21,288 nucleotides of DNA from a virus. The position numbers were made by a program, and so were the translations under genes. How positions within the stretch are numbered: position 1 is the first letter of the stretch; each line of letters starts with the position of its first letter. Below, one piece after another: positions 3,664 to 19,986 of the stretch. The stretch spans positions 1 through 21,288 of the IMG/VR virus record IMGVR_UViG_3300022747_000236. One strand, given 5' to 3'. The notes below the pieces were generated by a model. That model saw only the letters and a program-made list of their open reading frames with translations. It did not search any database and was not told the origin of the DNA.

Positions 3664-5025
3664 ATGACCTACGATTCGCCTCGCTTCCGCGCAATGGACG
3701 ACGCTTTATTAGCGCTGGGTGTGTCGCCAACAGCCGCGCTCTACCTTGATAGATGTCAGGTCGACACGCCGAGCCCTTTGGTTAGAAAAGTCTGGGATAT
3801 CGTCAACAAGATAAGAGGCCCTGTTGGCAAGGTTGTCGATTTTGGTGCGGGTGATGCCCGCTTTGCAAAATATGGTCACTACAAGTCATACGTGGGATAC
3901 GAGATTGATCCCTCTAGATGCTCCCTGAAGAATCTGCCTGGGCATGCGGAGGTAGTAAATGCCTGTGCATTCTCTGAAGACATTTGTGATGCGAGCTTGT
4001 CGATCGGCAATCCGCCCTATGTTCGAAATCAAGATCTGCCTGAAGGCTGGAGACAAAAAGCTGCGGCAAAAATTCAACAGCGAATTGGAGTGAAGGTATC
4101 TGGTCTTGCCAACGCTTGGCAGTATTTCTTTCTGCTGTCATTGGCGAGCACCGCAGAGGATGGTTTGGTTGCCTTGGTCATACCCTACGAGTGGGTGTCT
4201 AGACCATCCTCAGAAGCCTTGCGCGAGTACATTAAAAAATGTGGCTGGAATGTAGATGTCTACCGTTTGGGCGACAAGACATTTGACCGTGTCCTTACTA
4301 CTTGTTCGATAACCATCGTCGACAAGAAGGCACGGGAAGGTGTCTGGCACTACTACCGCGAAAACGAAGACGAGAGCTTTTCGCTAATGCGCGCTCTAAC
4401 GGGCAGCAACCGCAAGCTGCTGTCATACGATCGCTCAAAGAAGGCCTTGATACGTGCAAAACGCGGACTAAGTCCAGGTACACAGACCTACCTCACGCTG
4501 ACTGAGGGGGAACGAGCAAGATGTGGCTTGAAAATTGGTACAGATGTAGTCCACTGCGTCACTAGCCTGAAGTCTATCTCCAACGAAACAGAGCTTCTTG
4601 ATGAAGCTACTTTTCAGCGAGATTTTATTGATGCAGGAAAAAAATGCTGGCTGATAAGGACTGACAAAAAACCATCGGTCAAGCTGCAGCGTTATTTGGA
4701 CAGCGTACCAGCCAAAGGAAGGCAAACAAGTACATGTACTAAACGCGACGTCTGGTGGGCCTTCACTATGCCCCAAAAACCAGCACTTCTCATGGCCACT
4801 GGGTTTAGGGTGCGCCCCAAAGTAGTTCGCAATGAGGTCGGCGCGATGGCACTCGGAGGGGTATGTGGTATTTACGGTACAAGTGACGCAAAAACCACTA
4901 AAAAAATTGCTCAATTTCTTCGCAGCGAAGACTATAAAGGGCGCGTTGTTCCGCACGCAAATGGCCTACTTAAATTAGAAATCAACCAAATCAACTCGTT
5001 GCTTAACTCGATGACCGAATCGTGA
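3664..5025 (+). CDS. Adenine-N6 DNA methyltransferase, TaqI/Eco57I-like
   Basis: The 453-residue protein has the class I S-adenosylmethionine fold with motif I VVDFGAGDARF (57-67), an acidic residue ending strand 2 (YEID, E80) and the catalytic motif IV IGNPPYVRNQ (114-123). The order motif I then NPPY then a C-terminal target-recognition region is the gamma class of adenine-N6 methyltransferases, and NPPYVR is typical of the TaqI/Eco57I group. Residues from about 250 onward should choose the DNA site. No fused nuclease domain and no endonuclease gene are evident, so this is either a solitary methylase or the self-marking part of a larger defence operon. Its stop overlaps the next gene by four bases (GTGA), so translation of the two is probably coupled. 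Function as a methylase is secure; recognition site unknown. Confidence 0.85.
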   Translation: MTYDSPRFRAMDDALLALGVSPTAALYLDRCQVDTPSPLVRKVWDIVNKIRGPVGKVVDFGAGDARFAKYGHYKSYVGYEIDPSRCSLKNLPGHAEVVNACAFSEDICDASLSIGNPPYVRNQDLPEGWRQKAAAKIQQRIGVKVSGLANAWQYFFLLSLASTAEDGLVALVIPYEWVSRPSSEALREYIKKCGWNVDVYRLGDKTFDRVLTTCSITIVDKKAREGVWHYYRENEDESFSLMRALTGSNRKLLSYDRSKKALIRAKRGLSPGTQTYLTLTEGERARCGLKIGTDVVHCVTSLKSISNETELLDEATFQRDFIDAGKKCWLIRTDKKPSVKLQRYLDSVPAKGRQTSTCTKRDVWWAFTMPQKPALLMATGFRVRPKVVRNEVGAMALGGVCGIYGTSDAKTTKKIAQFLRSEDYKGRVVPHANGLLKLEINQINSLLNSMTES

Positions 5026-7286
5026 AAACAGCCCTACCCACCACAACCTCATCAAATCCTATTCTCGACTCTGGGGAAGAATCCTTCACTATTGAAAGCC
5101 GCATTATTCGGGAATTTGGTGAGCGCTTAGTTAAACACCCTGAGGTAGCGTTGCTTGAACTGGTAAAGAACGCGTATGACGCCGATTCCCCATCGTGTAC
5201 CGTTGCCCACAATTACCCCGAGCACATAACCGTTACCGATACCGGTTGCGGAATGACGTTAAAAGAATTCCAAACAGGTTGGATGCGGATCGGTACAAGC
5301 TCGAAAGAATCCAAAGCAACCAGTAATAAGTTCAAGCGACCGATATCTGGAGAGAAGGGGATTGGACGGTTCGCTGTGCGCTACTTAGGTCAGCATTTAG
5401 AGTTAAAAACTACAGCCTATGACACCGCTCGAAAGTGCAATACAACATTGATTGCAAAATTCGATTGGCCTCAATTTGATCTCAATGAAGACCTAGGAAC
5501 AGTCAAAGTACCCTACAAATTACACAGGGCATCAGATGACACCCCACTCGGAACAATTCTGCGTATCACTCAGCTGAGATCAAGCACAGAGAATATTGAT
5601 TTTAAGCAGGTACAGACAGCATCTCTTGGGTTGCTATCCCCGTACCAAGTTTTGCTTCGAAAAAATGAGAAAGACGATCTTCTTGACTTGCCAGATCCCC
5701 CCCAAGGCTTAGATACTGGATTTAATCTTGTCATTTACTCCCAAGATGAAGATGAAGAGAAAGAGGAGTCGGTAGCGGAGAAGATACTTGAAAATTATGT
5801 CTTCCGCTGCATAGTCTCTGTACGAGGTGGCCGTTTGGCGCTTCGCCTGTATCGGCGGGGCGAGCGCAAAGCATGGTTAAAAATCAATGACGTATATGAA
5901 AATACGTTTGACCAAGCCTACGCCGATATCAGATTTTTTCCGGCTCGAAAAGGCACATTTACTGCCATGCCAGTTGATGGCCGCGAAGCTCGTGCCTGGG
6001 TGAAAAATCATTCTGGTGTTGCGGTCTTTGATCGTGACTTCCGCGTTTTACCATATGGCACTTCGGGTGACGATTGGTTGAGGTTAGCTGCGGACGCGTC
6101 GCGAAATGAGCGCAATCCAGTGTCAAGTCTTGCACGGCGACATTTCCCAATGGATGAAGAAACTCAGCGATCCACAGCGTTGAACTACATGCTCCGCCTG
6201 CCACACCCAAGCCAGCTAGTCGGGGCCGTACAAGTATTTGGGGTTCGCAGCGAGGAGAAACAAGGAGATATAGGATTATTTGCAACCGCCGATCGCCAAG
6301 GATTTGTTCAGAACAAGGCGTATCTGCAGCTTGTCGATGCCGTTCGCAGCGCCGTAGAGGCGATTGCGTATGCAGATAGAGAATTGCAGCAAGAAACAGA
6401 GGCACGCGAAATTGCTGATCTTGCAAAAATCGCTCAGAACGAAACAGCGGAAGCCATCGCGCAGGTCCGAACCAACGCTAACCTCACATCTTCTGAGAAA
6501 GCATCACTTGTTAAGCGCCTAGTAAACGTCCAAGAAGCCACCGAACGCCATGATAATTTGGTCAAAAGTCGGGATACGGCCCTTGAAGTAATGAGCCTAT
6601 TGGGCGTAGTCGCCGGATTTATGACTCATGAGTTTGGAACTGCGATTCATGATTTAGAGCGCTCCCACGAGATATTGTCAAAGCTTGGCAAGCGTGATGC
6701 CAGCATCGCCAAACAGGCAACCGCTATTCAAACCCACATTACGGCACTCAAGGATTTTGTCGCGTATTCACAGGGGTACATAAAAGGTACATCCATTGTT
6801 CCTTCCAACCCGCTTCCCGCAGCCCCAAGAATCCGGCAGGTACTGAAGGTATTCGGAAAGTATGCGACTGATCGAAAAATCAATGTGGAAGTCGACGTCG
6901 CAGCGGATGTTAAGACACCCAGAATTCCGATATCCCTTTACAGTGGCATCGTTCTAAATCTCTACACAAATGCACTAAAAGCTGTAACTGCACGCTCCGG
7001 TGCGCCAGCGCGTGAAATTGCAGTTCGAGCGTGGAACGAAAAGAATATTCACAAACTGCAAATATCAGATACAGGCGCTGGTATTCCATCAGCTCTGGCG
7101 GAAAGAATATTCGATCCATTGTTTACAACCACAGAAAGCAATCGTGATCCCCTAGGATCTGGAATGGGGCTTGGGTTGACATTGGTTCGCAAGGGAGCGA
7201 AAGCGTTTGGTGGAACTGTGAATTTAGTAAAACCACCACCGGGGTTTGAAACATGCTTTGAAGTGAAATTTCCAATCGGGGAGTAA
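5022..7286 (+). CDS. Dual GHKL ATPase: MORC/Hsp90-like N-terminus fused to histidine kinase C-terminus
   Basis: The 754-residue protein carries two complete GHKL ATP-binding modules. The N-terminal one has N-box ELVKNAYDAD (46-55), G1 DTGCGM (73-78) and G2 SGEKGIGRF (109-117), the Hsp90/MORC/MutL-like form. The middle (about 130-420) resembles the transducer region of such ATPases. A helical coiled-coil-like stretch (about 440-520) leads to FMTHEFG with H536, a likely phosphoacceptor of a dimerisation domain. The C-terminal module has LNLYTNALKAV (N650), DTGAGI (D683) and GSGMGLGL (about 712-719), a standard histidine kinase domain. No membrane segment is visible, so it should be cytosolic. 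The receiver-domain gene follows two bases after the stop, making a phosphorelay pair likely. Such proteins are usually annotated only as ATP-binding protein. Confidence 0.85.
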   Translation: MKTALPTTTSSNPILDSGEESFTIESRIIREFGERLVKHPEVALLELVKNAYDADSPSCTVAHNYPEHITVTDTGCGMTLKEFQTGWMRIGTSSKESKATSNKFKRPISGEKGIGRFAVRYLGQHLELKTTAYDTARKCNTTLIAKFDWPQFDLNEDLGTVKVPYKLHRASDDTPLGTILRITQLRSSTENIDFKQVQTASLGLLSPYQVLLRKNEKDDLLDLPDPPQGLDTGFNLVIYSQDEDEEKEESVAEKILENYVFRCIVSVRGGRLALRLYRRGERKAWLKINDVYENTFDQAYADIRFFPARKGTFTAMPVDGREARAWVKNHSGVAVFDRDFRVLPYGTSGDDWLRLAADASRNERNPVSSLARRHFPMDEETQRSTALNYMLRLPHPSQLVGAVQVFGVRSEEKQGDIGLFATADRQGFVQNKAYLQLVDAVRSAVEAIAYADRELQQETEAREIADLAKIAQNETAEAIAQVRTNANLTSSEKASLVKRLVNVQEATERHDNLVKSRDTALEVMSLLGVVAGFMTHEFGTAIHDLERSHEILSKLGKRDASIAKQATAIQTHITALKDFVAYSQGYIKGTSIVPSNPLPAAPRIRQVLKVFGKYATDRKINVEVDVAADVKTPRIPISLYSGIVLNLYTNALKAVTARSGAPAREIAVRAWNEKNIHKLQISDTGAGIPSALAERIFDPLFTTTESNRDPLGSGMGLGLTLVRKGAKAFGGTVNLVKPPPGFETCFEVKFPIGE

Positions 7287-7288
7287 AA

Positions 7289-8386
7289 ATGAAGCAGACC
7301 ATACTGCTGATTGACGATAAATCAGAGTTTTTAGCTCCGCTAGCAGAAGCACTGGCGCAGAAACTTGGAGAGACGGCAAATGTTGTACCCTGGGTTCCGA
7401 ACAGTACCGAACGGCCTTTGGAGAAGTTTGAGCAACTTGTACAAGATAACGATGTCAGACTGGTAGTCACTGACTACGATTTGACGCAGCAAGGCCAACT
7501 TGGTTTTTTTGGAGCGACCGTAGTTGATTGGTGTCAGGTCAAAGGCATTCCAGTAGGGGATTTTTCGCGCGGCAATGCTAGCTCGCTTGCAACTGAGCCC
7601 AATCTTTTTGAGCTTAGAGTCCCCATCCAGTCCAACGATGCAGCTGTTGACTTCATTGCTAGTGTATTTCGTGGCTTCATTGAAATCCGTGCCAACATTG
7701 ACAGCAACCCCGTACTACTCAAGCAGAGGAGCCCTGCAGCGGCATTGGCTCTGATGTTAGGGGTTGGGCATTTAGAGAGTCAATTTTCTCAATACGGTAC
7801 CCGCTATGGAGGTGCAAACAGCGCGTTGATTGACAAGTTTGTTGAGACAGCTCATCGAGACGTCACCCCGGATCCATCCCGCAAAGCGACATTGCTTGCG
7901 TACATCATGGGACACTTGCTTCATAACGCTGTGCTGCGCTTTCCGGGACCCATCGTAAGTTCTGAAGCCCTTGCTGCATACCTAGCTGTGAACCAATCCG
8001 ACCAAGAAAAGTACTTGCCGATGTTCGCACCAGCTCTTTTCAAAGGTCCATTTTCCGAACTGGACTCCTACTATTGGACTCATTCTGTGGATGAAGTTCT
8101 CGCTCAGTACGACGAGAAAGTGTCCGAAGACATGCAGTTTGAGAGTACTGGTGAGTACAACAGAATTCGAGTTGAAACTGCGCTGCAAACCACGTTGAAA
8201 CAATCCACAGACTGCCTCCGATGTAACGGAAAAAATGGTGGCTTTTGGTGCCCATTTTCACGCAAAGCTGTATGCCAACGCTCGGATTGTTCAATTGTCT
8301 CCAATGTCTGGATTCCGTCTGGGGCACGATTGGCTCGATTCGAGCGAGACTTCTATGAAGAGTGGGCACCAATTCTGGGAATGTGA
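7289..8386 (+). CDS. Receiver-domain protein with C-terminal Cys cluster (response-regulator-like)
   Basis: The 365-residue protein begins ILLIDDKSEF with the acidic pair D9/D10 and continues to VVTDYDLT with D62 in the position of the phosphorylated aspartate, so the N-terminal ~130 residues are a receiver-like domain. The conserved Thr/Ser and Lys further on are poorly matched (PVGDFSRGN, then FELRVP with Arg for Lys), so it may be an atypical receiver. The middle region is helical with no recognised DNA-binding fold. The C-terminus has a Cys cluster C309-x2-C312-x8-C321-x7-C329-x4-C334 suited to binding zinc. GGGGAG lies upstream of the ATG. Its position right after the kinase gene makes it the expected phosphoryl acceptor; the output of the C-terminal part is unknown. 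Confidence 0.7.
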   Translation: MKQTILLIDDKSEFLAPLAEALAQKLGETANVVPWVPNSTERPLEKFEQLVQDNDVRLVVTDYDLTQQGQLGFFGATVVDWCQVKGIPVGDFSRGNASSLATEPNLFELRVPIQSNDAAVDFIASVFRGFIEIRANIDSNPVLLKQRSPAAALALMLGVGHLESQFSQYGTRYGGANSALIDKFVETAHRDVTPDPSRKATLLAYIMGHLLHNAVLRFPGPIVSSEALAAYLAVNQSDQEKYLPMFAPALFKGPFSELDSYYWTHSVDEVLAQYDEKVSEDMQFESTGEYNRIRVETALQTTLKQSTDCLRCNGKNGGFWCPFSRKAVCQRSDCSIVSNVWIPSGARLARFERDFYEEWAPILGM

Positions 8387-10686: not shown

Positions 10687-12966
10687 TTATGTTTGATCAG
10701 CGGTATGAACGGAAGCGCTTTCGGCAACGCAGGTCACCTCCACCAAATCAGCTCGAGGTTTCACGCTCATGACGCGCGCCATCTGGGCCCAGGTCTGCCC
10801 CACCCCAAATGCAAAGTGCGTTCGCTCCTCACCTCCACCGGTTTGAATTGCAATGCTCGGCGTTTGCTGCAGCACGGCATGTCGTTCAGTAACTCCACGC
10901 GTCACACCAATCGGGTCTGTCACAGAACCATCTACGCGTCTCAAAGCGATGTAGTGATTCGCTCCTGTCTGCCAAGGCAAGCGCTCCGAACAGACCAACA
11001 CCTTGGATGCACCATCCCATGACAAAGCCTCACCACTGACACCCCAGCTGGGCATGTCATGACTGATGGCCACCAAGTCCCCATAGGTCGGAATCAGCCC
11101 TTCAAGCTCTGTCCTAAAAGTGATGATTCGTCTGCGATACCGATTGGCCGCCGCGATGTACCTGCCCTCGCGCATCGCTTGAGACTTGTCGGTACAACCA
11201 AAGAGCTTCAAGCGAGCAGGCTTAGAGAGGGCCGAACCCGCAAGGGCCACCGTGACTTCATCAGGCTTCCAGCTCTTGGGGTTGAAGTATTCAACCGTGA
11301 CCGCATCCGCTGTTGCATCTCCCGGCATCACGTACTGAATCTTCAAACTACTGCGCACGATGTTTCGGGTGGAGAACAAGGCCACAGGGATGGTCTTGGG
11401 TTCATCTCGAACAATGCGCACAATGCCGCCTTGCAGGAACGGAAGCGCACGTCCAGCTCTGGCAATCTGCCCCATGGCGTCCCAAACCGTTAGGTTCTGG
11501 TCAAACACGCCATTGAACGTATCACCACGCGCAGACCACACCCCATCCAGTCGAGCGAGTGCATTCAAGTCAATCTTTGCATCAGGCAACCCTGCCCCGT
11601 AACTCGAGCGCGCTGCATCTGCAAATGCCCAAGCAATCGAGCGAGTAGCTTGAGGTGAACTCCATCCTGTGGTCTTTGACCAAACAGGGAGCTTTCGAGT
11701 GACTAGGCAGTTCACCAAACGAGATGATCTCTGCGACAAGTTATCCGTTGCGCGCATGCGCAATGCCAGCAAGGTCAAGTCCGATGGCAATGATGGATTG
11801 ACCAGATAGCCCTTTGCTTGCCCCCAGCGAAGCTCATGCCCCGCACGGGTACTGGTGTCTTTGATGTCTAGCCTTTGAACACGCACCTCGTAGCGACCGG
11901 CACCCACTCCATATTTGTAGGTTCTACGTTGAGCTGTATTGGTAGCTGCCGAGTAGGACTCATCGGCAAGATGAAGCCATCCGGAGGTGGCATCACCATC
12001 GTCATTGATGGTTCTTGCCTCAACCTGCCATTGAACGGTTCGACTATCCAGCGTTCCACCATCAGTCGCGTAGTACAAGCCTCGCATCATTACAACGTCA
12101 ATGCCAATCTGATTAACTTGGGTCCCCGCAGGGTTGAGCGCAAAGGGACCAATGATGCTGCCGCCCGTATCAGCGACGGCAATTAACTCCTGCCCCGTCA
12201 CCTCAGCCGCTGTCACCACATCGTTGTTGAACAAGGTGTTTTGACCACCCGGCTCGATGACCTGTGCCTGCACTTCTTCAAACGATGCAATGGGGCTGTC
12301 ATCAATCGACAGCTCTTCAAAATGGAAATGCCCAATGCCAATCACATGGAGCTGGTGCAGGTACTCTTCGTTGTTGACGTACTCCGTATAGGGCATCGCT
12401 GCCAAATCCGGATAAATCAGATGCTGCCCATACACAACAGGAATCGGCTGGGACAGGCGCCCATAGTTGCCACGCGCCTGCAGTGAGTAAGTTGGACTTG
12501 GTGAAGATGAGCTGGCTGTGGCATTGGGCAGGCTCTGATTTGGTAACGGCACCAAGGCATTCACGATGATGGAACCTGTCACAGCAATTGCGGTTGATGC
12601 CACCGAAGTCGCTACTGCGCCTGAATATCCGAAGGATGCGGCCAGCTCAGCGCCATAGGCGTTCGCCACAACCAAGACGGCAATCATCAGAACAGTCTGC
12701 AACGGGTTCTTACCCCCGCCTCCACCTCCTTGTGGCAGCGACACCAGTGCAATGACATCTCCAGCCTCAATGAGGGTCACGCAGCGTTCAGCCATTAGCA
12801 CTGGCTTGCCGTTCTTGAGTACCAGCGTTGGTTGCTCAAAAACGACCTGCTCTTGGTGCATCCATTGGCTGATGGTTGGACTACCCTGAACGTGATGGAC
12901 ATCACGCTCTTGGGGATCGAATGGGTTTCGGAGCCAAACTACGACACCATCATTGCTGCTTGGCAT
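10687..12966 (-). CDS. Tail tip protein, lambda J-like (short form)
   Basis: The 759-residue protein follows the NlpC/P60 peptidase gene and has the organisation of lambda-type tail tip proteins: an N-terminal ~78-residue domain, a run of six glycines (80-85), a hydrophobic stretch (about 90-145), then the conserved beta-rich region with YGRLSQPIPVVYGQ and later VWDAMGQIARAGRALPFLQG. It should close the distal tail and contact the host surface or membrane. It is much shorter than lambda J (1132 residues) and ends soon after the conserved core, so the receptor-binding extension seems absent. No separate lambda I-like gene lies between it and the peptidase; the N-terminal domain before the glycine run may fill that role. 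Its start overlaps the upstream gene by 28 bases, with GAGGTG upstream. Confidence 0.88.
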   Translation of the reverse strand: MPSSNDGVVVWLRNPFDPQERDVHHVQGSPTISQWMHQEQVVFEQPTLVLKNGKPVLMAERCVTLIEAGDVIALVSLPQGGGGGGKNPLQTVLMIAVLVVANAYGAELAASFGYSGAVATSVASTAIAVTGSIIVNALVPLPNQSLPNATASSSSPSPTYSLQARGNYGRLSQPIPVVYGQHLIYPDLAAMPYTEYVNNEEYLHQLHVIGIGHFHFEELSIDDSPIASFEEVQAQVIEPGGQNTLFNNDVVTAAEVTGQELIAVADTGGSIIGPFALNPAGTQVNQIGIDVVMMRGLYYATDGGTLDSRTVQWQVEARTINDDGDATSGWLHLADESYSAATNTAQRRTYKYGVGAGRYEVRVQRLDIKDTSTRAGHELRWGQAKGYLVNPSLPSDLTLLALRMRATDNLSQRSSRLVNCLVTRKLPVWSKTTGWSSPQATRSIAWAFADAARSSYGAGLPDAKIDLNALARLDGVWSARGDTFNGVFDQNLTVWDAMGQIARAGRALPFLQGGIVRIVRDEPKTIPVALFSTRNIVRSSLKIQYVMPGDATADAVTVEYFNPKSWKPDEVTVALAGSALSKPARLKLFGCTDKSQAMREGRYIAAANRYRRRIITFRTELEGLIPTYGDLVAISHDMPSWGVSGEALSWDGASKVLVCSERLPWQTGANHYIALRRVDGSVTDPIGVTRGVTERHAVLQQTPSIAIQTGGGEERTHFAFGVGQTWAQMARVMSVKPRADLVEVTCVAESASVHTADQT

Positions 12967-13382
12967 GGCTCACCTCGAAATGCATAAAACCCCTCGACTC
13001 GCCAACCATGACGGTCAAGCGCCCACAAGTCCTGAAACACCACCCCCACACCTTGCGCGCAATGCAGCACGCCTCCACCATCGATGTCTAGCCAAACACC
13101 GACATGCACCGGATATCTGGACTGACGCATCAGCACGGCATCCCCATGTTTTGGCGTTGGCACACGCTGCCAGCGTTTTCGCTCGGGGTGTTCGTTGAAT
13201 GTCTTGAGCACCACACGCAGATCCATTGCATCCACTGGGATAAGCGGAAGCTCCCGTCCGAAGTGATTTCTCTGCACCCATAAAAAAAGGCCCCAGCAGT
13301 CAAATGACTCGGGGCCTCGTCCGCCTGCTATCCATGGGCGACCTATGTATCGGTGCGCCCAGTAGCCGTTTGTTGGTTTCAT
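12939..13382 (-). CDS. NlpC/P60 tail assembly peptidase (lambda K-like)
   Basis: The 147-residue protein carries the NlpC/P60 catalytic pattern: FDCWGL with Cys29, then PVHVGVWLD with His93 and a polar third position near His107. Such phage proteins are cell-wall peptidases placed at the tail tip or used in tail assembly. The gene sits between a DUF1833-type protein and the J-like gene, the lambda L-K-J order. The Shine-Dalgarno sequence is weak (GGGTAA). A terminator-like hairpin with a T7 run lies inside the coding sequence over the catalytic Cys codon. Function call is firm; exact role in tail assembly versus injection is open. Confidence 0.87.
   Translation of the reverse strand: MKPTNGYWAHRYIGRPWIAGGRGPESFDCWGLFLWVQRNHFGRELPLIPVDAMDLRVVLKTFNEHPERKRWQRVPTPKHGDAVLMRQSRYPVHVGVWLDIDGGGVLHCAQGVGVVFQDLWALDRHGWRVEGFYAFRGEPCQAAMMVS
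13282..13317 (-). terminator. Terminator-like hairpin inside the NlpC/P60 gene
   Basis: On the minus strand, AGGCCCC (13317-13311) pairs with GGGGCCT (13294-13288), and inner AGTCA and TGACT arms pair around a two-base loop. TTTTTTT follows directly (13288-13282). The structure has the features of an intrinsic terminator but lies within a coding sequence, over the codons for GPESFDCWGLFL. It could attenuate transcription of the J-like gene, or it may simply result from codon needs. Structure seen, function unproven. Confidence 0.4.
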
Positions 13383-13392
13383 GACTTACCCA

Positions 13393-13935
13393 TCACCGGG
13401 CAAGTCCCGGAAACTCTGTCGAGGTGTACAACCGACCTGGAAACGCTTTATTTCCGATATCGACCATGCGCGCCCTTGCGGTCACTCGCATCACATCAGC
13501 CTCCACCTCAGTCAGTACCAACGTGATGGGAGGATCCATCTGCGGGCCCTCGACATCGTTTGACAAGTACGGGCGATAAGTGACTTCGATGGAAGCTTCT
13601 GACTCAGACGCAGCATCAAGGTGTTTGACGATCTCGCGAGAGACGTTATCCAAGGTCAGCACGACCTCAGGAACAGGTGCAATGTCCACAGGCGGCAAAT
13701 CCAAATCAAACCCCATGGCTACAAACCTCACTGTCTGGTTTGGATTCAACGGTGCCGAAGCTTCGAGACGTGCAAAGAGGTCTTGTTGATCTCGCACCAC
13801 CCGGATAGCTGTTGTCACGCCCGACTCGTTTTTAAAGTCAGGGTGACGCAGCTCTAAGGTGTGCAGGATCACCACATCTGAAGGTGAACTCGCGTACGCC
13901 TCTTTCAACGCATCACTCAACGTCACATCAGGCAT
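13393..13935 (-). CDS. Minor tail protein, DUF1833-like (lambda L position)
   Basis: The 180-residue protein resembles the DUF1833 family of phage proteins: an opening MPDVTLSDALKEAYASSPSD with ILHTLELRHPDF, then VRFVAMGFDLDLPP, VLTLDNVSREI and a YRPYLSN stretch. This beta-rich family regularly precedes NlpC/P60 and J-like genes and takes the place of lambda L, a tail tip component. It overlaps the radical SAM gene by eight bases, so the two are translated from the same message. Function as a structural minor tail protein is by position and family. Confidence 0.8.
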   Translation of the reverse strand: MPDVTLSDALKEAYASSPSDVVILHTLELRHPDFKNESGVTTAIRVVRDQQDLFARLEASAPLNPNQTVRFVAMGFDLDLPPVDIAPVPEVVLTLDNVSREIVKHLDAASESEASIEVTYRPYLSNDVEGPQMDPPITLVLTEVEADVMRVTARARMVDIGNKAFPGRLYTSTEFPGLAR

Positions 13936-15277
13936 GCTCTACCTTGATCGGGATGACACGACGCTCTTTCGCTTCGGAGTGCTCACTGACCAATCCAAAG
14001 ATATCTCGCCGCTCCTGCGGGAAATCGCCCTCGATGTAGAACGGGAAGCAGCCAGTAAGGAACTCAATGCCTGCGGCTAAAAACGGCACGTTGTCGGCAT
14101 AGGAGGCATCGCACCCTGCTGTCCACAAGGGGCCGTCCAAAAACATGCATGAGCCTTTGCACAACTGAAGCACAGGACAATTTGAACAACCGTCTCGCTT
14201 GCTCCAATGCGTGGCGCTGCGCATCTTGACTGCTTGAAGCTGAGAGATGTGCCCAATCTTGTGTGACTCACCGTTTGGAGCTACAGCGGCTGCGCTCACG
14301 TTCTGGCAAGTCAACACATTGCCGTTTAGATCAACAACGAGGTTGTCGGTGCGGTCCATGCCGCACTTTTGACCCAACGCACTGGCAGGACGGCCTTGGG
14401 CCACAGACTCCACAAAGTCCATGATCTTCTTGCGACCGATATCAAAACTGGTCACCGCACCTGCACGCAACTCCTTGAACGCAAAGGCACTGAAAGTGAC
14501 GCGCTCCCCTGAAGTCTGAAACGTGGAAGCCAATCCACCCTCGTCATACGGATCAATGAAAGCGCCCTCGCCAATGACGACATCCTCACCAAAGCGTTCG
14601 CGCAGCCATGCCTGCACATGCGCGCGACTTGGATTGTTGGCGTGAATCATGGCGTTGATGCTGATTCGACCCTCAGGCTTCAAGCGCGCGTACAGATCAA
14701 AGATGGCAGCTCGCTTTTGTGGGTCATCCAAAGGATCAGCACCGCGTGCGTGATAACCAGGGCCATCATGCGACAACCCCACTGAGAATCCCAAACGGTC
14801 AATCCATGCGTTCTTGTCTGCATCTAACAGACTGCCATTGGTAATCATGCTGAACTGAGCCTTGGGGTACAACGCCCTCAACCGCTCAGCCAGTGGTTTT
14901 AAGGTCTTCCAGTAAACCAGCGGTTCGCCACCCCAGAACTCAATGCGCTCTGGAGGTTCAATCAGCGCATCGACCAATGAGCTCAAAAACGCATCAACGT
15001 CTTCTGGATTGGTTTGATCTGCATGCGGCACAAACCGTTGTGAGCAGTAGGTGCAGGCGTAATTGCAAAGCAGGCCAAGACTGATCTTGAGCACTCGCAC
15101 ATTGCCCTTGCGACCGGGTTGATCTTTGGCAACCACCGTCGCATCACGCCAAGCGCGCGCTTTGACTGGAACGACCGACTGGCCATTGCTCCAAGCAAGG
15201 CTAGAAGTTTGGTTGTTGTAGACCAACGAGTCTTCTGTGCCGTCAAGCTTGATCACATAGATGCGGAACTCAGCCAT
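13928..15277 (-). CDS. Radical SAM/SPASM peptide or protein maturase
   Basis: The 449-residue protein has the radical SAM cluster motif C71-x3-C75-x2-C78, the GGEP motif at 116-119 and a barrel core (MITNGSLL, SVGLSHDGPG). Its C-terminal SPASM domain matches the seven-Cys pattern exactly: C305, G319-x4-C324, then C364-x2-C367-x5-C373-x3-C377 and C389, enough for two auxiliary iron-sulfur clusters. SPASM enzymes of this shape cross-link or otherwise modify ribosomal peptides, or mature sulfatases. It stands inside a tail operon, overlapping the oxygenase-like gene upstream and the minor tail gene downstream by eight bases each, with GGAG seven bases before its ATG. The Cys-rich fibre protein encoded three genes upstream is the obvious candidate substrate. 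The enzyme class is secure; the substrate is inference. Confidence 0.92.
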   Translation of the reverse strand: MAEFRIYVIKLDGTEDSLVYNNQTSSLAWSNGQSVVPVKARAWRDATVVAKDQPGRKGNVRVLKISLGLLCNYACTYCSQRFVPHADQTNPEDVDAFLSSLVDALIEPPERIEFWGGEPLVYWKTLKPLAERLRALYPKAQFSMITNGSLLDADKNAWIDRLGFSVGLSHDGPGYHARGADPLDDPQKRAAIFDLYARLKPEGRISINAMIHANNPSRAHVQAWLRERFGEDVVIGEGAFIDPYDEGGLASTFQTSGERVTFSAFAFKELRAGAVTSFDIGRKKIMDFVESVAQGRPASALGQKCGMDRTDNLVVDLNGNVLTCQNVSAAAVAPNGESHKIGHISQLQAVKMRSATHWSKRDGCSNCPVLQLCKGSCMFLDGPLWTAGCDASYADNVPFLAAGIEFLTGCFPFYIEGDFPQERRDIFGLVSEHSEAKERRVIPIKVEHA

Positions 15278-15881
15278 GGATGCGCTCCACTTTGATATTG
15301 AAAAGAATATTCATGAACGGTTGCTCCCCAAAGTAGGGTTTCTGAAAATGAATCGCTCTGGCATCAAAGGCGATCAACAGACCGCGATGAGGTTTGATCC
15401 AGAACTTGGATGGGGACTCCCAAGGCATGAGCAACCCAGCAAAACCGGACGAGCGCCAGGCGGGGTTACAGATGGCGAAGCCATTGGGTGCGAATTGATT
15501 GATCTGTGGCATCAGGCCAAGCGAACCATCTAGCTCGGGACCGAACGGAAAGTAGATGGCCTGCACATCACATTCGTCTTCGTCGTTGTGCGGCATGATT
15601 TCGACGCCATTGGCGCGAACCACTTCACGCCCTTGCACATGAACCACTCGCCCGCTTGGACCAAGCAGTTCCTGCACTTTGCACACAACTGTCGTCTGCA
15701 ACGTCTGGCAGCGCGGTGAATGCCCGTCAAAGATGTTGTGGTCTTTGCGTTCCCAGATTTGATCGCCTGTTTGCATGCGCACGTTCAATTGCAAGAGCTC
15801 TTCATAGAGCCCCTGATCAAACGCCGTATCCATGCCAAGTGACCAGATCCCTGTTTTAAGAGGAAAAAGGTCAAGGATCAT
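15270..15881 (-). CDS. Putative 2-oxoglutarate/Fe(II) oxygenase-like protein
   Basis: The 203-residue protein has an HxD pair (IMPHND, H98 and D100) and a distal His178 in AFDARAIHFQ, about 80 residues apart, as in the double-stranded beta-helix Fe(II) oxygenases that hydroxylate amino-acid side chains. The strand pattern AIYFPFG, GLLIAFDA and FMNILFNIKV supports that fold. The Arg or Lys that usually binds 2-oxoglutarate shortly after the distal His is not in the expected form, so activity or cosubstrate could differ. The ATG overlaps the upstream stop (ATGA), and the gene overlaps the radical SAM gene by eight bases. In context it may hydroxylate a tail protein. The family call is moderate; cupin-like or non-catalytic alternatives remain. 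Confidence 0.55.
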   Translation of the reverse strand: MILDLFPLKTGIWSLGMDTAFDQGLYEELLQLNVRMQTGDQIWERKDHNIFDGHSPRCQTLQTTVVCKVQELLGPSGRVVHVQGREVVRANGVEIMPHNDEDECDVQAIYFPFGPELDGSLGLMPQINQFAPNGFAICNPAWRSSGFAGLLMPWESPSKFWIKPHRGLLIAFDARAIHFQKPYFGEQPFMNILFNIKVERIHG

Positions 15882-16720
15882 GGAACGCTCACCACCAAGT
15901 CATCCGTACCACTGAAGTACTTGAAGCCGACTTTGATCTTGATTTGGGTGCCAGAGCACAGACCGTCTGTTTTGAAAACAGTGCTCCCCGCTCCATCAAC
16001 AGTCATCACGCGACGCTCGCGCAAGAAACCAGCGGTTGAGTCCAAATAGATCTCCGCTTCATGATGGGCAATGGGCTGGCCATCTGACTCTTCCAGTCTG
16101 AAATTGACAATCAGCCCCTCACCCGATTCAACACTGGGTGTGAACCGAACCACAGGTAAAGACTCCATGCGCGCCAAAGCCAATGTCACACAAGGCTCGG
16201 TCTCCAAGTCCCCTTCTGTTTTAACGAGCACAGGATCGAACACATTGAAACCAAGCAACCAGTCTGGGAGTTCCGATGTTTTGAAGGGAACCAAGATGTG
16301 ACCAATGGGGTGAGCCTGAACCACGGTGGCGTGATAAGCCTGTGCATCCATCTTGCTCGCCAAAGTGGCGACATACAGGTTGGGTGTGTGATCAAAGAGA
16401 CTTTCTCGCGCGCCCTCTGATGCCCATCCCTTCGGGGCGTACAACATGAACGAAGCATGGTCGCCAAACTCAGCATGTGATTTGAATGTTTCCAAGTCCA
16501 AAGAGCGCTGGTAGGCGCCTTCATCAAAAACGCCCCAATCTCCCCGCCACTCGGTGATCAGTGATTCATCAAAGAACTTGCCACCGCTGTCATGATCCTG
16601 TGTTGGGTCGCCCACAAAATCTCGCTGCATGACATTTCGAACTCGGAACGAGAGCACCGAACCATCTAAGGTGACATCCAGCGCAAAGGGTGTATTTTTT
16701 GTTGTGAGGTGAAGTTTCAT
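15878..16720 (-). CDS. Phage tail-associated protein of unknown function
   Basis: This 280-residue protein is not recognised. The N-terminal half is acidic with several Trp, including TEWRGDWGVFDEGAYQRS. The C-terminal ~85 residues look like an Ig-like beta sandwich (GLIVNFRLEESDGQP, EIYLDSTAGF, KIKVGFKYF). ATG 16720 was chosen because GGGGGAG lies just upstream; the frame continues to 16807, which would overlap the fibre-tip gene. It lies 10 bases after that gene and overlaps the oxygenase-like gene by four bases, so it may be a second structural part of the fibre, an assembly chaperone or a substrate-presenting partner for the modifying enzymes. Confidence 0.7.
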   Translation of the reverse strand: MKLHLTTKNTPFALDVTLDGSVLSFRVRNVMQRDFVGDPTQDHDSGGKFFDESLITEWRGDWGVFDEGAYQRSLDLETFKSHAEFGDHASFMLYAPKGWASEGARESLFDHTPNLYVATLASKMDAQAYHATVVQAHPIGHILVPFKTSELPDWLLGFNVFDPVLVKTEGDLETEPCVTLALARMESLPVVRFTPSVESGEGLIVNFRLEESDGQPIAHHEAEIYLDSTAGFLRERRVMTVDGAGSTVFKTDGLCSGTQIKIKVGFKYFSGTDDLVVSVP

Positions 16721-16730
16721 GTTCTCCCCC

Positions 16731-17330
16731 TTAGCAGCAGTTGCAATCGCAATTGCAGTTGTACCGAGTTCCATATGCGCCAAGCCGCAAGTTGCCACCG
16801 TTATCAAACAAGGTGATCAAGTTGTAGTAGTTGTACGGAGCTTGATCGCCGCAGTTGTAACAGTTGTCCGTGATTTGGCAATTGGGGGCGCCTTGCCAAC
16901 CAGAATTCGGTGTGTTGTTTACACGTACGCAGTTGCTCACGTTGTTGAAGAAGCAGTCATGCAACCAGCCGTAGTTGGCCGTCCACATCTGGCCACCGTT
17001 ATTCATGTACATGTCCCAGTTGCCATCAGATTTCAGAAAACCCAATAGCCCTTGGTTGTGATGCAAATACCGCGTACCCCAGTCTGTATCAACTAGATCG
17101 ATGTAGTTCGCTGTGGATGCGACTTGCAGACGTGAAACAGACAAGGTTCCCGTCATCGTATCACCTGCCTTGTTGACCTTGGTCGACAAGTCCAGCGCAG
17201 CAGTACCTGCGGAAGTGACTTGGCCTTTGCTGTTGACCGTTAGCACGGGAATTTGCGAAGCAGACCCATAGGTTCCTGCAGAGACACCCGAGTCTTTCAG
17301 GCCCTCAGGTGGGATTTGGGTAATAGGCAC
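16731..17330 (-). CDS. Tail fibre tip-like protein with Asn/Asp-Cys-rich C-terminus; candidate modification substrate
   Basis: The 199-residue protein starts like a phage fibre (VSAGTYGSASQIPVLTVNSKG, about 16-36, and VNKAGDTMTGTLSV, about 52-65), and continues with a GFLKSDGNWDMYMNNGG segment common in fibre tips. All ten cysteines are in the last 74 residues: 126, 134, 151, 157, 160, 192, 194, 196, 198 and 199. Each except the last directly follows Asn or Asp, and the chain ends YNCNCDCNCC. Start GTG 17330 is preceded by AAGGAGG with five-base spacing. It follows the long fibre gene by 25 bases and precedes the genes for the unknown protein, oxygenase-like protein and radical SAM enzyme. 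The terminal tract resembles a radical-SAM-modified peptide core joined to a fibre. Disulfides or metal binding are alternatives. Confidence 0.82.
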   Translation of the reverse strand: MPITQIPPEGLKDSGVSAGTYGSASQIPVLTVNSKGQVTSAGTAALDLSTKVNKAGDTMTGTLSVSRLQVASTANYIDLVDTDWGTRYLHHNQGLLGFLKSDGNWDMYMNNGGQMWTANYGWLHDCFFNNVSNCVRVNNTPNSGWQGAPNCQITDNCYNCGDQAPYNYYNLITLFDNGGNLRLGAYGTRYNCNCDCNCC

Positions 17331-17355: not shown

Positions 17356-19986
17356 CTACAGATACCGAACAACAATGCGCACCCCGTTTAAGGGCGCAGA
17401 TGTGAATTTCAAGGTGGCACCGCTATTGACCAACACATACGCGTCCAACGAGTCTTGAATGACGTTGGCAACTGTCACCATGAGCTTGGTCACACTGGCC
17501 GCTGCCGTGGTGAGGGCAAAGTCAGTGGCACTGCCGTTTCCCGTGAACACCTGCGGCGCAACGCTCGAACCTTGCGCGCTGGCTGCCGCAGCTTGTGCCT
17601 GCGTGGCATAGGTCTGGGCATTGGTTGCTGAGGTGGAAGAAGCAGTGGCACTTGTTGCAGCGCTGGTGGCTGAGGTTGATGCCTGAGAGGCCGATGTACT
17701 CGCTGCACTTGCCGAACTTGCCGCACCAGTTGCAGAGCTACTGGCTTCTGTTGCCTTAGTTGCGGCTGTCGCCGCAGACGTTGCTGCATCAGAAGCTTTG
17801 GTCGTCGCCGTTGAGGCAGAGGTTGCTGATGTGGTTGCGGAAGTCGCCGCGGCAAATGCAGACGAAGCTGCATTCGTTGCCGAGGTCGATGCTTCGCCTG
17901 CTTTGCTAGTGGCAGTTGTCGCAGAGCTTGCAGCCGCAGTGGCAGAACCAGAAGCGTCAGACGCCTTGGTCGTGGCGGTTGTGGCTGAGGCTGCAGCAGA
18001 AGTCGCAGATCCAGAAGCATCCGTTGCTTTTTGGATTGCCACAGCACTACTCGCAGCGGCCGCCCCTGCGTGGTACTTAGCGGAGTACTCCGTAGAGCCT
18101 GAGACCGTACCAGTCGTCTTCGTTGCCCACTCTTGTGCAGCAGCGGCGCCCGACTGCGCTTCCTTATCCAAATACCGAACACTGATAAGAACACCATTGC
18201 CCGGCGCTGAGCTGAATCGAAGCGTGGTCGTTGTGGGCGTGGTGTACGCATCCACTGGTGCTTGCTGTACTCCTGCAACAGTGACCAACAAAGCACCGGG
18301 ATAAGAAACCCCGCGACTGATCGTGAAGTCTGTCGCCACACCATTGCCCGTGAAAGTCTCCGCAGGAATGATGGTGTTGGTCGTCACCGCTGCGGCTGAA
18401 CCAGCCGCTTGTGCTGCCCAGTACTTGGCTGAGTAACCGGTTCCGTCAACTGTCGCCGCCGTCTTCTCCGCCCAATCCGCCGCTTTGGTGGCTTGCGTTT
18501 GAGCGGAAGACAGAGAACTCGCTGCACTTGTTGCGCTGGTTGAAGCAGCACTCGCAGACGAAGCAGATGCGTTTGCACTGGCCAAAGCCTCTGAGGCCTT
18601 GGTCGTTGCCGTCGTTGCAGAACCTGCTGCGGCACTCGCGGATGCAGCAGCACTCGTTGCACTAGAACCTGCATTGGTCGCAGAGCTTGCAGCAGCCGTG
18701 GCACTTGCAGACGCGTCACTTGCTTTGGTGCTGGCCGTGTTTGCAGAGCCAGACGCCGCCGTCGAAGATGCGCCTGCGTTGGTGGCAGATGTCGCCGCTG
18801 CAGTGGCCTGCGTTGTTGCCGTTGTCGCTGACGATGCAGCACTACTGGCCGACGCTGCACTCTCTGAGGCTTTGGTCGTAGAAGTACTGGCAGAGCCTGC
18901 CGCAGCCGTGGCACTTGCCGCTGCATCACTCGCTTTTTGAGTGGCAGTCGCCGCAGATGCCGTGATGGACTGGGCGTAATACTTGGCCGAGTAATCAGTG
19001 CCACTGACAGGCGCACTTGTTTTGGTCGCCCAGTCTTGCGCGGTATTGGCGCTCGTTGCGGCTGCACTTGCTGAACCAGAAGCACTCGATGCACTACTGG
19101 ATGCATCGGTTGCTTTGGACGCTGCGGTGGTTGCTGAGCTGGCAGAGGCTGTGGCAGTTGCAGCCGCACTATTGGCAGAACCAGAAGCTGCACTGGCTTG
19201 TGTCGTTGCAGTTGCAGCAGAAGCTGCTGCATTGCCCGCAGACGTAGCCGCGTCACTGGCTTTGGTACTGGATGTGGTCGCGGAAGTGGCAGAGGCTGAA
19301 GCACTCGTTGCAGCCGCAGAAGCTGAAGCACTAGATGCGCTTGCACTGCTGGCCGCTGCCTGCGCTTGGTATTTCGCCGAATATTCAGTTCCCTGCACAG
19401 GCCCCGTGGTCTTGGTCGCCCAATCCATCGCAGCGGCTGCACCAGTCTGGCTTTCTTTATCCAGCATCCGAGCCGTGATGCTCACCCCATTCAAGGGAGC
19501 CGTCACAAACCTCAGCGTTTTGGAGTCAAACAGCGAATAAGCATCCACAGGTGTTTGCAGCACACTGGCAACAGTCACTTGCAATGCACCGGGATGACCC
19601 ACCGCATAGTCAAGCGCGAAGTCTGTCTGCGTCCCGTTGCCCACCCATGTCTTGGTTGGAATCACCACGGCACTGGTTGCCGCATCGGCCCTAGCCTTAA
19701 CCTCAGCCAGCGTTGCCGCTGCGTCTGCTGCTTTAGACGTGGACAGATTGGCACTGCTCGTGGAAATGCCAGCTTGCCTTGTGGCCTCACCCACCTGAGC
19801 TGTGAGCTCTGTGCGAGACGCAGCCAAATCAAGTTCAACCTGATGGATAGCCTTGGCCACCGTTTTGACAGGACCACCCTCGGTGACCACATCAGTCTGG
19901 CTGTTGCCATGCACCACTTGGTGCAACAAGGACACATCAACCTCAGCCTTATTGACTGTCGCTTCTAACCGTTCTTGCAGGTTCAT
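17356..19986 (-). CDS. Long modular phage tail fibre protein
   Basis: The 876-residue protein opens with a helical ~100-residue segment, then carries three copies of a beta-rich domain of about 70 residues (about 108-178, 537-607 and 809-876) with the pattern GNGxxTDF, PGALxVTV, PVDAY and APxNGVxIxxR. Between them are long Ala/Ser/Thr-rich stretches (KASDAxxSA-type heptads) punctuated by four WATKT-type modules ending in YSAKY (near 190, 330, 510 and 625). Such repeats form rod-like trimeric shafts in tail fibres. The third domain ends the protein directly, so the tip is probably supplied by the next gene product. ATG 19986 lies just after a terminator U-tract, and its Shine-Dalgarno sequence is poor (GAGC). 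Confidence 0.88.
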   Translation of the reverse strand: MNLQERLEATVNKAEVDVSLLHQVVHGNSQTDVVTEGGPVKTVAKAIHQVELDLAASRTELTAQVGEATRQAGISTSSANLSTSKAADAAATLAEVKARADAATSAVVIPTKTWVGNGTQTDFALDYAVGHPGALQVTVASVLQTPVDAYSLFDSKTLRFVTAPLNGVSITARMLDKESQTGAAAAMDWATKTTGPVQGTEYSAKYQAQAAASSASASSASASAAATSASASATSATTSSTKASDAATSAGNAAASAATATTQASAASGSANSAAATATASASSATTAASKATDASSSASSASGSASAAATSANTAQDWATKTSAPVSGTDYSAKYYAQSITASAATATQKASDAAASATAAAGSASTSTTKASESAASASSAASSATTATTQATAAATSATNAGASSTAASGSANTASTKASDASASATAAASSATNAGSSATSAAASASAAAGSATTATTKASEALASANASASSASAASTSATSAASSLSSAQTQATKAADWAEKTAATVDGTGYSAKYWAAQAAGSAAAVTTNTIIPAETFTGNGVATDFTISRGVSYPGALLVTVAGVQQAPVDAYTTPTTTTLRFSSAPGNGVLISVRYLDKEAQSGAAAAQEWATKTTGTVSGSTEYSAKYHAGAAAASSAVAIQKATDASGSATSAAASATTATTKASDASGSATAAASSATTATSKAGEASTSATNAASSAFAAATSATTSATSASTATTKASDAATSAATAATKATEASSSATGAASSASAASTSASQASTSATSAATSATASSTSATNAQTYATQAQAAAASAQGSSVAPQVFTGNGSATDFALTTAAASVTKLMVTVANVIQDSLDAYVLVNSGATLKFTSAPLNGVRIVVRYL
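17570..19370 (-). repeat. Low-complexity Ala/Ser/Thr-coding repeat tracts in the fibre gene
   Basis: Runs of GCN, AGC/TCN and ACN codons recur with a roughly 21- to 42-base rhythm, coding for KASDASGSAT-like units, interrupted by the conserved domain and YSAKY modules. The repetition gives long open frames on the opposite strand that are not genes. Such tracts commonly expand or shrink by recombination, altering shaft length. Confidence 0.8.

Follow-up and report, generated by a model that had tools for sequence, protein, structure and literature searches.

What is a radical S-adenosylmethionine (SAM) enzyme doing among the tail genes of a phage? Cross-links made by such enzymes are familiar from peptide natural products and the maturation of enzymes, and the question is raised here by a viral stretch of 21,288 bases, the whole of IMG/VR virus record IMGVR_UViG_3300022747_000236 (the window, which may itself be a genome fragment), in which a radical SAM enzyme with a SPASM domain is encoded downstream of a tail-fibre tip protein ending in a cysteine-rich tract. 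The co-occurrence of tract and enzyme across phage and prokaryote genomes leads us to propose that the enzyme probably modifies, post-translationally, the C-terminal (N/D)C tract of the fibre tip. The two partners and their motifs lie in the window as follows.

16731..17330, minus strand: 199-residue tail-fibre tip protein with a GTG start, the proposed substrate of the radical SAM enzyme (open reading frame, PHROG matches, Cys and Asn counts)
16734..16760, minus strand: C-terminal tract NCNCDCNCC, the proposed core of the modification (AAC TGC AAT TGC GAT TGC AAC TGC TGC)
13928..15277, minus strand: radical SAM/SPASM enzyme of 449 residues, the proposed modifying enzyme (Pfam, NCBIfam, phrog_1802)
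15044..15067, minus strand: CX3CX2C radical SAM cluster motif, C71-C78 (alignment of 20 sequences)
14111..14365, minus strand: seven-cysteine SPASM domain, C305-C389, CX13GX4C...CX2CX5CX3C...C (TIGR04085, alignment, pattern)

With ten cysteines and 24 asparagines in 199 residues and the C-terminus YNCNCDCNCC, the tip is indeed the Cys/Asn-rich fibre protein of the initial annotation; its PHROG matches are to phrog_36881, of unknown function (1.6e-10), and to the tail-fibre family phrog_8443 (0.0016). The enzyme exceeds the cut-offs of Radical_SAM in Pfam (PF04055; 9.4e-8, 32.8 bits against 29.5) and of SPASM in NCBIfam (TIGR04085; 5.4e-9, 36.4 bits against 27), and its best PHROG is phrog_1802 (2.6e-58). 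Across 20 aligned sequences C71, C75 and C78 are unchanged, as are the SPASM cysteines C305, C324, C364, C367, C373, C377 and C389, directly establishing the full CX3CX2C and seven-cysteine motifs claimed at the outset. By pattern, CX3CX2C is present in 160 of 161 radical SAM open reading frames (ORFs) and the seven-cysteine arrangement in 153, four of the remaining eight being short (131-375 residues) and four not.

Co-occurrence of tract and enzyme in both directions

Starting from the enzyme, we assembled 161 radical SAM loci: two from Achromobacter phages, the best 80 of 565 IMG/VR relatives (many of them close to the window, with 17 at 87% identity or above) and 79 from 91 prokaryote-genome relatives. 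A tract ORF lies upstream in 125 of the 161. Another 24 have less than 4 kb of upstream DNA, and 12 with more initially appeared to be without a tract, until a record search placed one at or just beyond the flank edge in two of them (L049 and L056); the tract is thus present in 127 of 137 loci, counting those that have it or that extend 4 kb or more upstream. At 60% identity, the enzymes longer than 380 residues form 27 clusters, 21 of which include at least one tract locus, and several Limnohabitans strains carry the tract and enzyme pair in their genomes.

Starting instead from the tract, three blind scans of IMG/VR for DNA encoding NCNC[ND]C, with the enzyme ignored, gave 316 distinct loci among the matches listed. 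In 208 of them no ORF of at least 50 residues reads the motif in frame, and in 108 one does. In 91 of these 108 the motif stands no more than 25 residues from the C-terminus or before the start of a Hint domain. Where such a tract has at least 4 kb of downstream DNA, 43 of 45 are followed on the same strand, within 8 kb, by a radical SAM match; the two tracts with no match lie in ORFs of 50 and 68 residues. The 43 matches represent 31 clusters at 90% and 18 at 70% enzyme identity, fragments counted as clusters. In one of them (L457) the enzyme gene is cut by a contig end, and in another (L423, 7906-8205) it is a 99-residue remnant beside a tract, a 280-residue-family gene and an oxygenase gene that have been kept, possibly a natural loss or an assembly fault. 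Among the 17 in-frame loci outside the 91, six have a same-strand radical SAM gene (L118, L125, L299, L379, L397 and L409; upstream in L125), and none was seen in the other 11, of which nine have ORFs of 50-140 residues and two (L430 and L537) lie near a contig end. The initial annotation had offered, as the test of its idea, whether the SAM gene occurs regularly without a cysteine-rich neighbour, and the idea has survived that test from both sides.

A control anchored on neither partner gives the same pattern. In 64 loci with a relative of the window's DUF1833 minor tail protein, counting those with at least 4 kb upstream, the tract accompanies the enzyme in 18 of 18 modules that have it and occurs in 0 of 14 that do not (Fisher 2e-9, samples not independent); no tract-type tail was found among the 688 ORFs of these 14. 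In one enzyme-less relative (L313) the same slot holds a tract-less 553-residue protein and a 150-residue protein. Another locus lacking both partners, L305, was considered as a natural enzyme loss and then set aside: its contig has inverted genes and a cut DUF1833 gene and looks chimeric.

A cysteine-rich tail, defined as at least four cysteines and at least two [ND]C pairs within the last 20 residues, is present in 112 of 117 tract ORFs (eight Hint-bearing ones set aside) and in only four of the 10,564 remaining ORFs of 60 residues or more in those loci, three of the four being extra tract copies; this rules out a chance or low-complexity artefact. The codons of the tract are mixed (TGC 597, TGT 97, AAC 284, AAT 145), and synonymous mixing of this kind indicates selection on the protein rather than on a DNA repeat. 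Over 59 non-redundant C-termini, the number of cysteines is most often four to six (42 of 59; maximum 11), the spacing from one cysteine to the next is two in 232 of 258 steps, and the preceding residue is N in 179, D in 40 and A in 38 of 317 cases. The ORFs concerned are 72 to 686 residues long, some of them cut by contig ends, the 199-residue window ORF being fibre-type. By BLAST single linkage 111 of the 125 fibre bodies form one group, with five others of 9, 2, 1, 1 and 1, and convergence of the tract onto many unrelated fibres is accordingly not supported. One locus (L083:4011-5090) carries three tandem short ORFs (113-119 residues) before the radical SAM gene, each with a TNCNCACDCL end; this is a fibre-tip duplication.

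Tail module, accessory genes and cassette exchange

The minus-strand module of the window runs from a tape measure protein and a 162-residue tail protein through an 876-residue fibre protein to the 199-residue tip, and continues with a 280-residue protein, a 203-residue protein, the radical SAM enzyme, DUF1833, NlpC/P60 and a TipJ-like protein. Besides the two partners already listed, it contains the following.

17356..19986, minus strand: Ala/Ser-rich fibre protein of 876 residues, directly upstream of the tip (tail-fibre PHROG matches)
15878..16720, minus strand: 280-residue protein (family F1), ATG start, accessory (predicted C-terminal immunoglobulin-like domain)
15270..15881, minus strand: 203-residue iron-oxygenase-like protein (family F2), accessory (AlphaFold model, Foldseek, H98-x-D100...H178)
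15588..15590, minus strand: codon of His98, presumed first metal ligand of the 203-residue protein (H in 43 of 43 aligned)
15348..15350, minus strand: codon of His178, presumed distal metal ligand of the 203-residue protein (H in 43 of 43 aligned)
13393..13935, minus strand: DUF1833 minor tail protein, downstream border of the cassette (PF08875 1.1e-42, phrog_396)
10687..13382, minus strand: NlpC/P60 tail protein and TipJ-like host-specificity protein (Pfam and PHROG matches)

Matches to Tape_meas_lam_C, minor tail proteins, DUF1833, NlpC/P60 and TipJ-like proteins in this order (Pfam, PHROGs), with all four ORFs from tip to enzyme on the minus strand, agree with the earlier placing of a four-gene run in a lambda-type tail module. 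The small overlaps said to join the four genes are found at three of four junctions (4 nt between the 280- and 203-residue genes, and 8 nt on either side of the radical SAM gene, with the 203-residue gene and with DUF1833); between the tip and the ATG of the 280-residue gene there is instead a gap of 10 nt.

AlphaFold models both accessory proteins well. The 280-residue protein (predicted local distance difference test, pLDDT, 92.5) has a confidently predicted immunoglobulin (Ig)-like domain at residues 189-280. In the top VIA rows this domain aligns with Ig-like domains over 85-89 residues (Z 10-11.6), and its matches include adhesins and a phage neck protein. The 280-residue protein has no family match above cut-off in Pfam and none in NCBIfam or PHROGs. 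With this C-terminal domain, and without a match for residues 1-188, a role as an enzyme is unsupported; the absence of a structural match for residues 1-188 is no evidence of a new fold, one domain having filled the match list. The 203-residue protein (pLDDT 90.5) is predicted to adopt a double-stranded beta-helix with H98-x-D100...H178, and Foldseek relates it to 3bvc (2.1e-6), to prolyl hydroxylases (P4H, 3.8e-6) and also to 2rg4. H98 and H178 are present in 43 of 43 aligned F2 members and position 100 is E, H or D in 42; PF13759 matches 31 of the 43 (E 0.01) and does not match the window copy itself. The aligned position after the distal histidine, which we take to be the usual site of the arginine that binds 2-oxoglutarate, is Arg in nine members, has no Arg in 34 and is Phe in the window copy, with the caveat that the alignment may slip there. 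The HxD...H oxygenase-like protein of the initial annotation thus keeps the fold and metal-ligand pattern of 2-oxoglutarate/Fe(II) oxygenases and mostly lacks their usual arginine, which puts the cosubstrate of the window copy in doubt, although another residue could serve.

These accessory genes are common and variable. By BLAST clustering of the 125 tract loci, F1 is found in 88 and F2 in 87; 18 loci have a further family, F3, which includes 2OG-FeII_Oxy_3 proteins (both of the two members scanned match), and four, a minimal form, have no ORF called between tract and enzyme. By profile, the blind set of 45 has F1 nearby 28 times, F2 20 times and F4, resembling gp29 of Achromobacter phage JWF, nine times, against 43 for the radical SAM enzyme, which makes the enzyme the near-constant partner of the tract. 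We therefore reject the oxygenase as an obligatory partner (87 of 125 by clustering, 20 of 45 by profile, methods and samples differing), and the four-gene system originally described was too narrow: its tract and enzyme are the core. A direct view of cassette exchange comes from L021, in which tape measure, minor tail, fibre and DUF1833 proteins are 97-99% identical to those of the window, the tip 74%, and the accessories only 25-26% alike (26% for the oxygenase); a JWF gp29-like gene is present.

In a further variation, a Hint start (CF[PV]AG) falls at the last tract cysteine in eight of 125 tract ORFs (those of Achromobacter phages JWF and 2-1 among them), and L397 and L409 have a variant Hint start after the tract. 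In JWF and 2-1 Pfam places Hom_end_hint at the tract end (3e-12 and 5e-12, profile positions 1-37 and 1-40), whereas the window fibre has no match to a Hint profile. From the Hint/Hedgehog mechanism, a Hint domain that lacks the C-terminal splicing part is expected to cleave before its first cysteine, which would leave the tract at the mature C-terminus, as the stop codon does in the window; that a tract would come to lie at the very end by two architectures suggests that this placing is important. JWF and 2-1 resemble the window in having a tail fibre with an NCNCDCNC-type tract and a radical SAM gene close downstream in the tail module (gp28-gp30 in JWF; 49.1% and 47.5% identity to the window enzyme), but differ in that the fibre runs on into the Hint domain and in that a single F4-type gene, not the 280-residue and oxygenase-like genes, separates fibre from enzyme. 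No link between the two is drawn in the annotations shown for either phage. Residues 178-251 of the JWF fibre body (L001:6844-8295) match Shufflon_N (PF04917, 5.3e-7), which represents the invariant part of proteins varied by shufflons. In the part of the PubMed Central (PMC) article PMC3899368 that concerns it, JWF is a temperate siphovirus of Achromobacter, and as an isolated phage it is a directly accessible test case.

Proposed chemistry of the fibre tip and its rivals

As in ribosomally synthesized and post-translationally modified peptides (RiPPs), a modifying enzyme is here genetically linked to a conserved cysteine-rich core at the C-terminus. To judge from sequence, that tract is very likely the substrate of the enzyme, and the RiPP-like modification of the fibre tip first suggested for this locus gains support from the two-way co-occurrence; its chemistry, and any gain in stability or receptor binding, 'hardening' included, we infer. 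In the scheme we propose, the tract would be the RiPP-like 'core', for which the folded fibre would serve as 'leader'; the enzyme would link cysteine sulphur to carbons of the interleaved Asn/Asp (or Ala) residues, most likely as thioether cross-links, so that each fibre chain would end in a small, rigid knot or the chains of a presumed trimer would be knotted to one another. Thioethers are favoured because the tract presents repeated Cys beside Asn/Asp, as PapB-type enzymes use Asp; the prospects of this particular chemistry seem to us evenly balanced. The weaker part of the proposal is that iron oxygenases may hydroxylate the same fibre, and whether the oxygenase does act there we would call about even. 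Where a Hint domain follows the tract, it would cut itself off and so make the tract the C-terminus, and the variable partners (iron oxygenases, Ig-domain protein, JWF gp29-like protein) would travel along as an exchangeable cassette. On balance we lean towards a widespread and apparently undescribed form of virion maturation, in which phages encode SPASM radical SAM enzymes dedicated to turning the C-terminal (Asn/Asp-Cys)n tails of fibres into cross-linked, non-natural host-contact knots, iron oxygenases often and Hint autoprocessing sometimes taking part; the tip-plus-modifier cassette would be swapped as a unit, and tip chemistry, in addition to sequence, would diversify host recognition or protect the tip.

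Several observations weigh against this proposal. Ten radical SAM loci with enough upstream DNA show no tract. Seven of these are divergent (L242, L259, L269 and L271-L274; 372-445 bits), and in the five inspected by eye (L242, L259, L269, L271 and L273) no tail module was seen; L058 and L225 look rearranged by eye, the upstream ORFs of L058 appearing unrelated; and L275, which by eye lies between F1-like and DUF1833-like genes with no visible tract, may be a true exception. Elsewhere in the genomes of L225 and L275 there are tract ORFs (L336, L342) that are not known to be linked. From the other direction, only 21 of 46 blind tracts with less than 4 kb downstream have the enzyme, the nearest exceptions being L133, L436 and L447 (3.9, 3.1 and 2.5 kb downstream). 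The linkage of 111 of 125 fibre bodies means that tract and enzyme could partly be co-inherited rather than re-associated. Tract cysteines are odd or even in number and X varies (N, D, A, G, R), with no single cross-link register evident. Characterised radical SAM relatives match weakly: none of the 25 listed NCBIfam models for specific families reaches its curated cut-off, which only the general SPASM domain does, and the best, the PapB model NF047865 (1.8e-16), scores 60.3 bits against 340, so that the reaction has to be inferred and is not readable from family.

A rival reading is another radical SAM reaction on the tract: conversion of Cys to formylglycine, as in anaerobic sulfatase maturases, epimerisation, C-terminal decarboxylation or C-C cyclophane bonds. 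The tip would then bear groups such as aldehydes, which can react with amines of the host. One record deposits the JWF copy as 'anaerobic sulfatase-maturating enzyme', the enzyme profile matches structures of anaerobic sulfatase-maturating enzymes (anSMEs) over 308 columns, its sulfatase_rSAM score (TIGR03942, 48.6 bits) is not far from that for PapB, and the tract stands at the extreme C-terminus. The sulfatase_rSAM cut-off of 349 is nevertheless far away, and in our judgement [ND]C repeats with up to 11 cysteines suit repeated ring formation better than a single oxidised cysteine; we hold such an alternative to be unlikely, if worth keeping in view.

The tract might also be a metal- or iron-sulphur-binding tail, or a disulphide knot, formed with no covalent radical chemistry while the enzyme serves something else. 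CXCXC tracts bind metals in many proteins, and some phage tail tips are known to carry iron or iron-sulphur clusters; what makes this explanation improbable is that it accounts neither for the near-constant enzyme in both directions nor for the absence of the tract from enzyme-less modules, and that cysteine counts are both odd and even. Still further down the scale, and scarcely credible, is the reading of enzyme and oxygenases as metabolic cargo unrelated to the fibre, a role proposed for the radical SAM genes of Campylobacter phages CP220 and CPt10; in PMC2853527 the module with five such genes in these phages is considered probably dispensable, with a possible benefit to the metabolism of the host. 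The window enzyme sits inside a tail operon with 8-nt overlaps on both sides, its link with the tract is as tight as expected for a substrate-enzyme pair, and the Campylobacter proteins align with just 25-28% of the query, at about 27-28% identity. Modification of the fibre-tip tract by the enzyme remains the explanation we prefer.

Relatives of the enzyme occur in other settings too. In Variovorax, Ramlibacter and a gammaproteobacterial metagenome-assembled genome, the divergent homologues of L269 and L271-L274, for which no tract was found, are possibly a cellular relative of the phage system; those of L269 and L273 adjoin, by eye, ATP-grasp-like and roughly 775-residue ORFs. Four human faecal phage records with weak radical SAM matches were fetched: L540 resembles an ordinary SCIFF-type pair beside bacterial-type genes, and L541-L543 have no CXC-rich tract by pattern. 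A second, distant radical SAM family was matched at L144 (110 bits) and L407 (64 bits), two of the 43 downstream matches of the blind set. On the minus strand of L353:170-3116 and L407:11274-13930 it lies beside very Cys-rich proteins with the C-terminus NCNCDCNCNCSDDS, two of them encoded by tandem ORFs in L353; by eye, both loci have a separate 136-residue Hint-like ORF, and all three have a 274-280-residue protein whose end resembles that of the 280-residue family. Standing beside Cys-rich tract proteins and an Ig-type protein, this family would extend the system beyond the enzyme family of the window. In Thermus phage Cumys (L003:4982-7272) a radical SAM gene directly follows that of a 343-residue His/Asp/Ser/Thr-repeat protein (DTHSDTHGD-like), with tail/baseplate genes adjoining; this is perhaps another virion protein treated by a radical SAM enzyme.

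Elsewhere in the window, plus-strand genes at 3664-8386, opposite the tail module, encode an Eco57I-type methylase (PF07669 3.5e-9; PADLOC MTase_II 9.8e-20), a 754-residue protein that matches HATPase twice (PADLOC REase_II 4.3e-8) and, next to it, an unassigned 365-residue protein, a back-to-back run that is possibly a restriction-modification-like defence island. The cytidylyltransferase-like protein at 2186-2803 on the plus strand (PF01467 1.8e-6) is possibly a nicotinamide-nucleotide adenylyltransferase, hinting at nicotinamide adenine dinucleotide metabolism in the phage.

Comparison with known systems

Searches of open-licence PMC papers turned up no account of a tail fibre modified by a radical SAM enzyme. 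PapB ranthipeptide maturases (NF047865) share with the window enzyme a radical SAM core and a SPASM domain. PapB acts on Cys with Asp partners, its known substrates being small peptides with CX3D spacing, and the window system differs from it in presenting (N/D)C repeats on a structural fibre and in scoring far under the cut-off. The closest solved relatives by profile, PDB 8vpo (4e-16) and PDB 5wgg and 5why (5e-10), are radical SAM proteins with a SPASM-like cysteine region, the latter two presumably the SCIFF thioether maturase CteB; good alignment of the window enzyme with CteB and 8vpo is confined to the radical SAM core, and the substrates of SCIFF enzymes are short peptides rich in Cys rather than virion proteins. 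The anSME of PDB 4k37 is matched across those 308 profile columns and belongs to a class of SPASM enzymes that modify a cysteine of a full-size protein, but its substrate is quite different from the window tract. PapB and SCIFF enzymes form thioethers on Cys, and anSME oxidises it. The 203-residue family is like PF13759 2OG-FeII_Oxy_5 and the prolyl 4-hydroxylases (PDB 4j25; also the uncharacterised 3bvc) in its fold and its H-x-[DEH]...H ligands, and unlike them in retaining the usual 2-oxoglutarate arginine in only nine of 43 members.

Maturation by SPASM radical SAM enzymes is thus already known, and what would be new here is the class of substrate, a virion protein; were the chemistry proved, 'categorically new' would be a fair description for virion maturation. 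Use of this chemistry on a fibre tip would add a new chapter to the post-translational modification of virions, with the chemistry of peptide natural products finishing the tip that contacts the host, and receptor binding by such phages would then not be predictable from sequence alone. It would also provide cysteine-modifying enzymes acting at the end of a large folded protein, a property useful for protein engineering.

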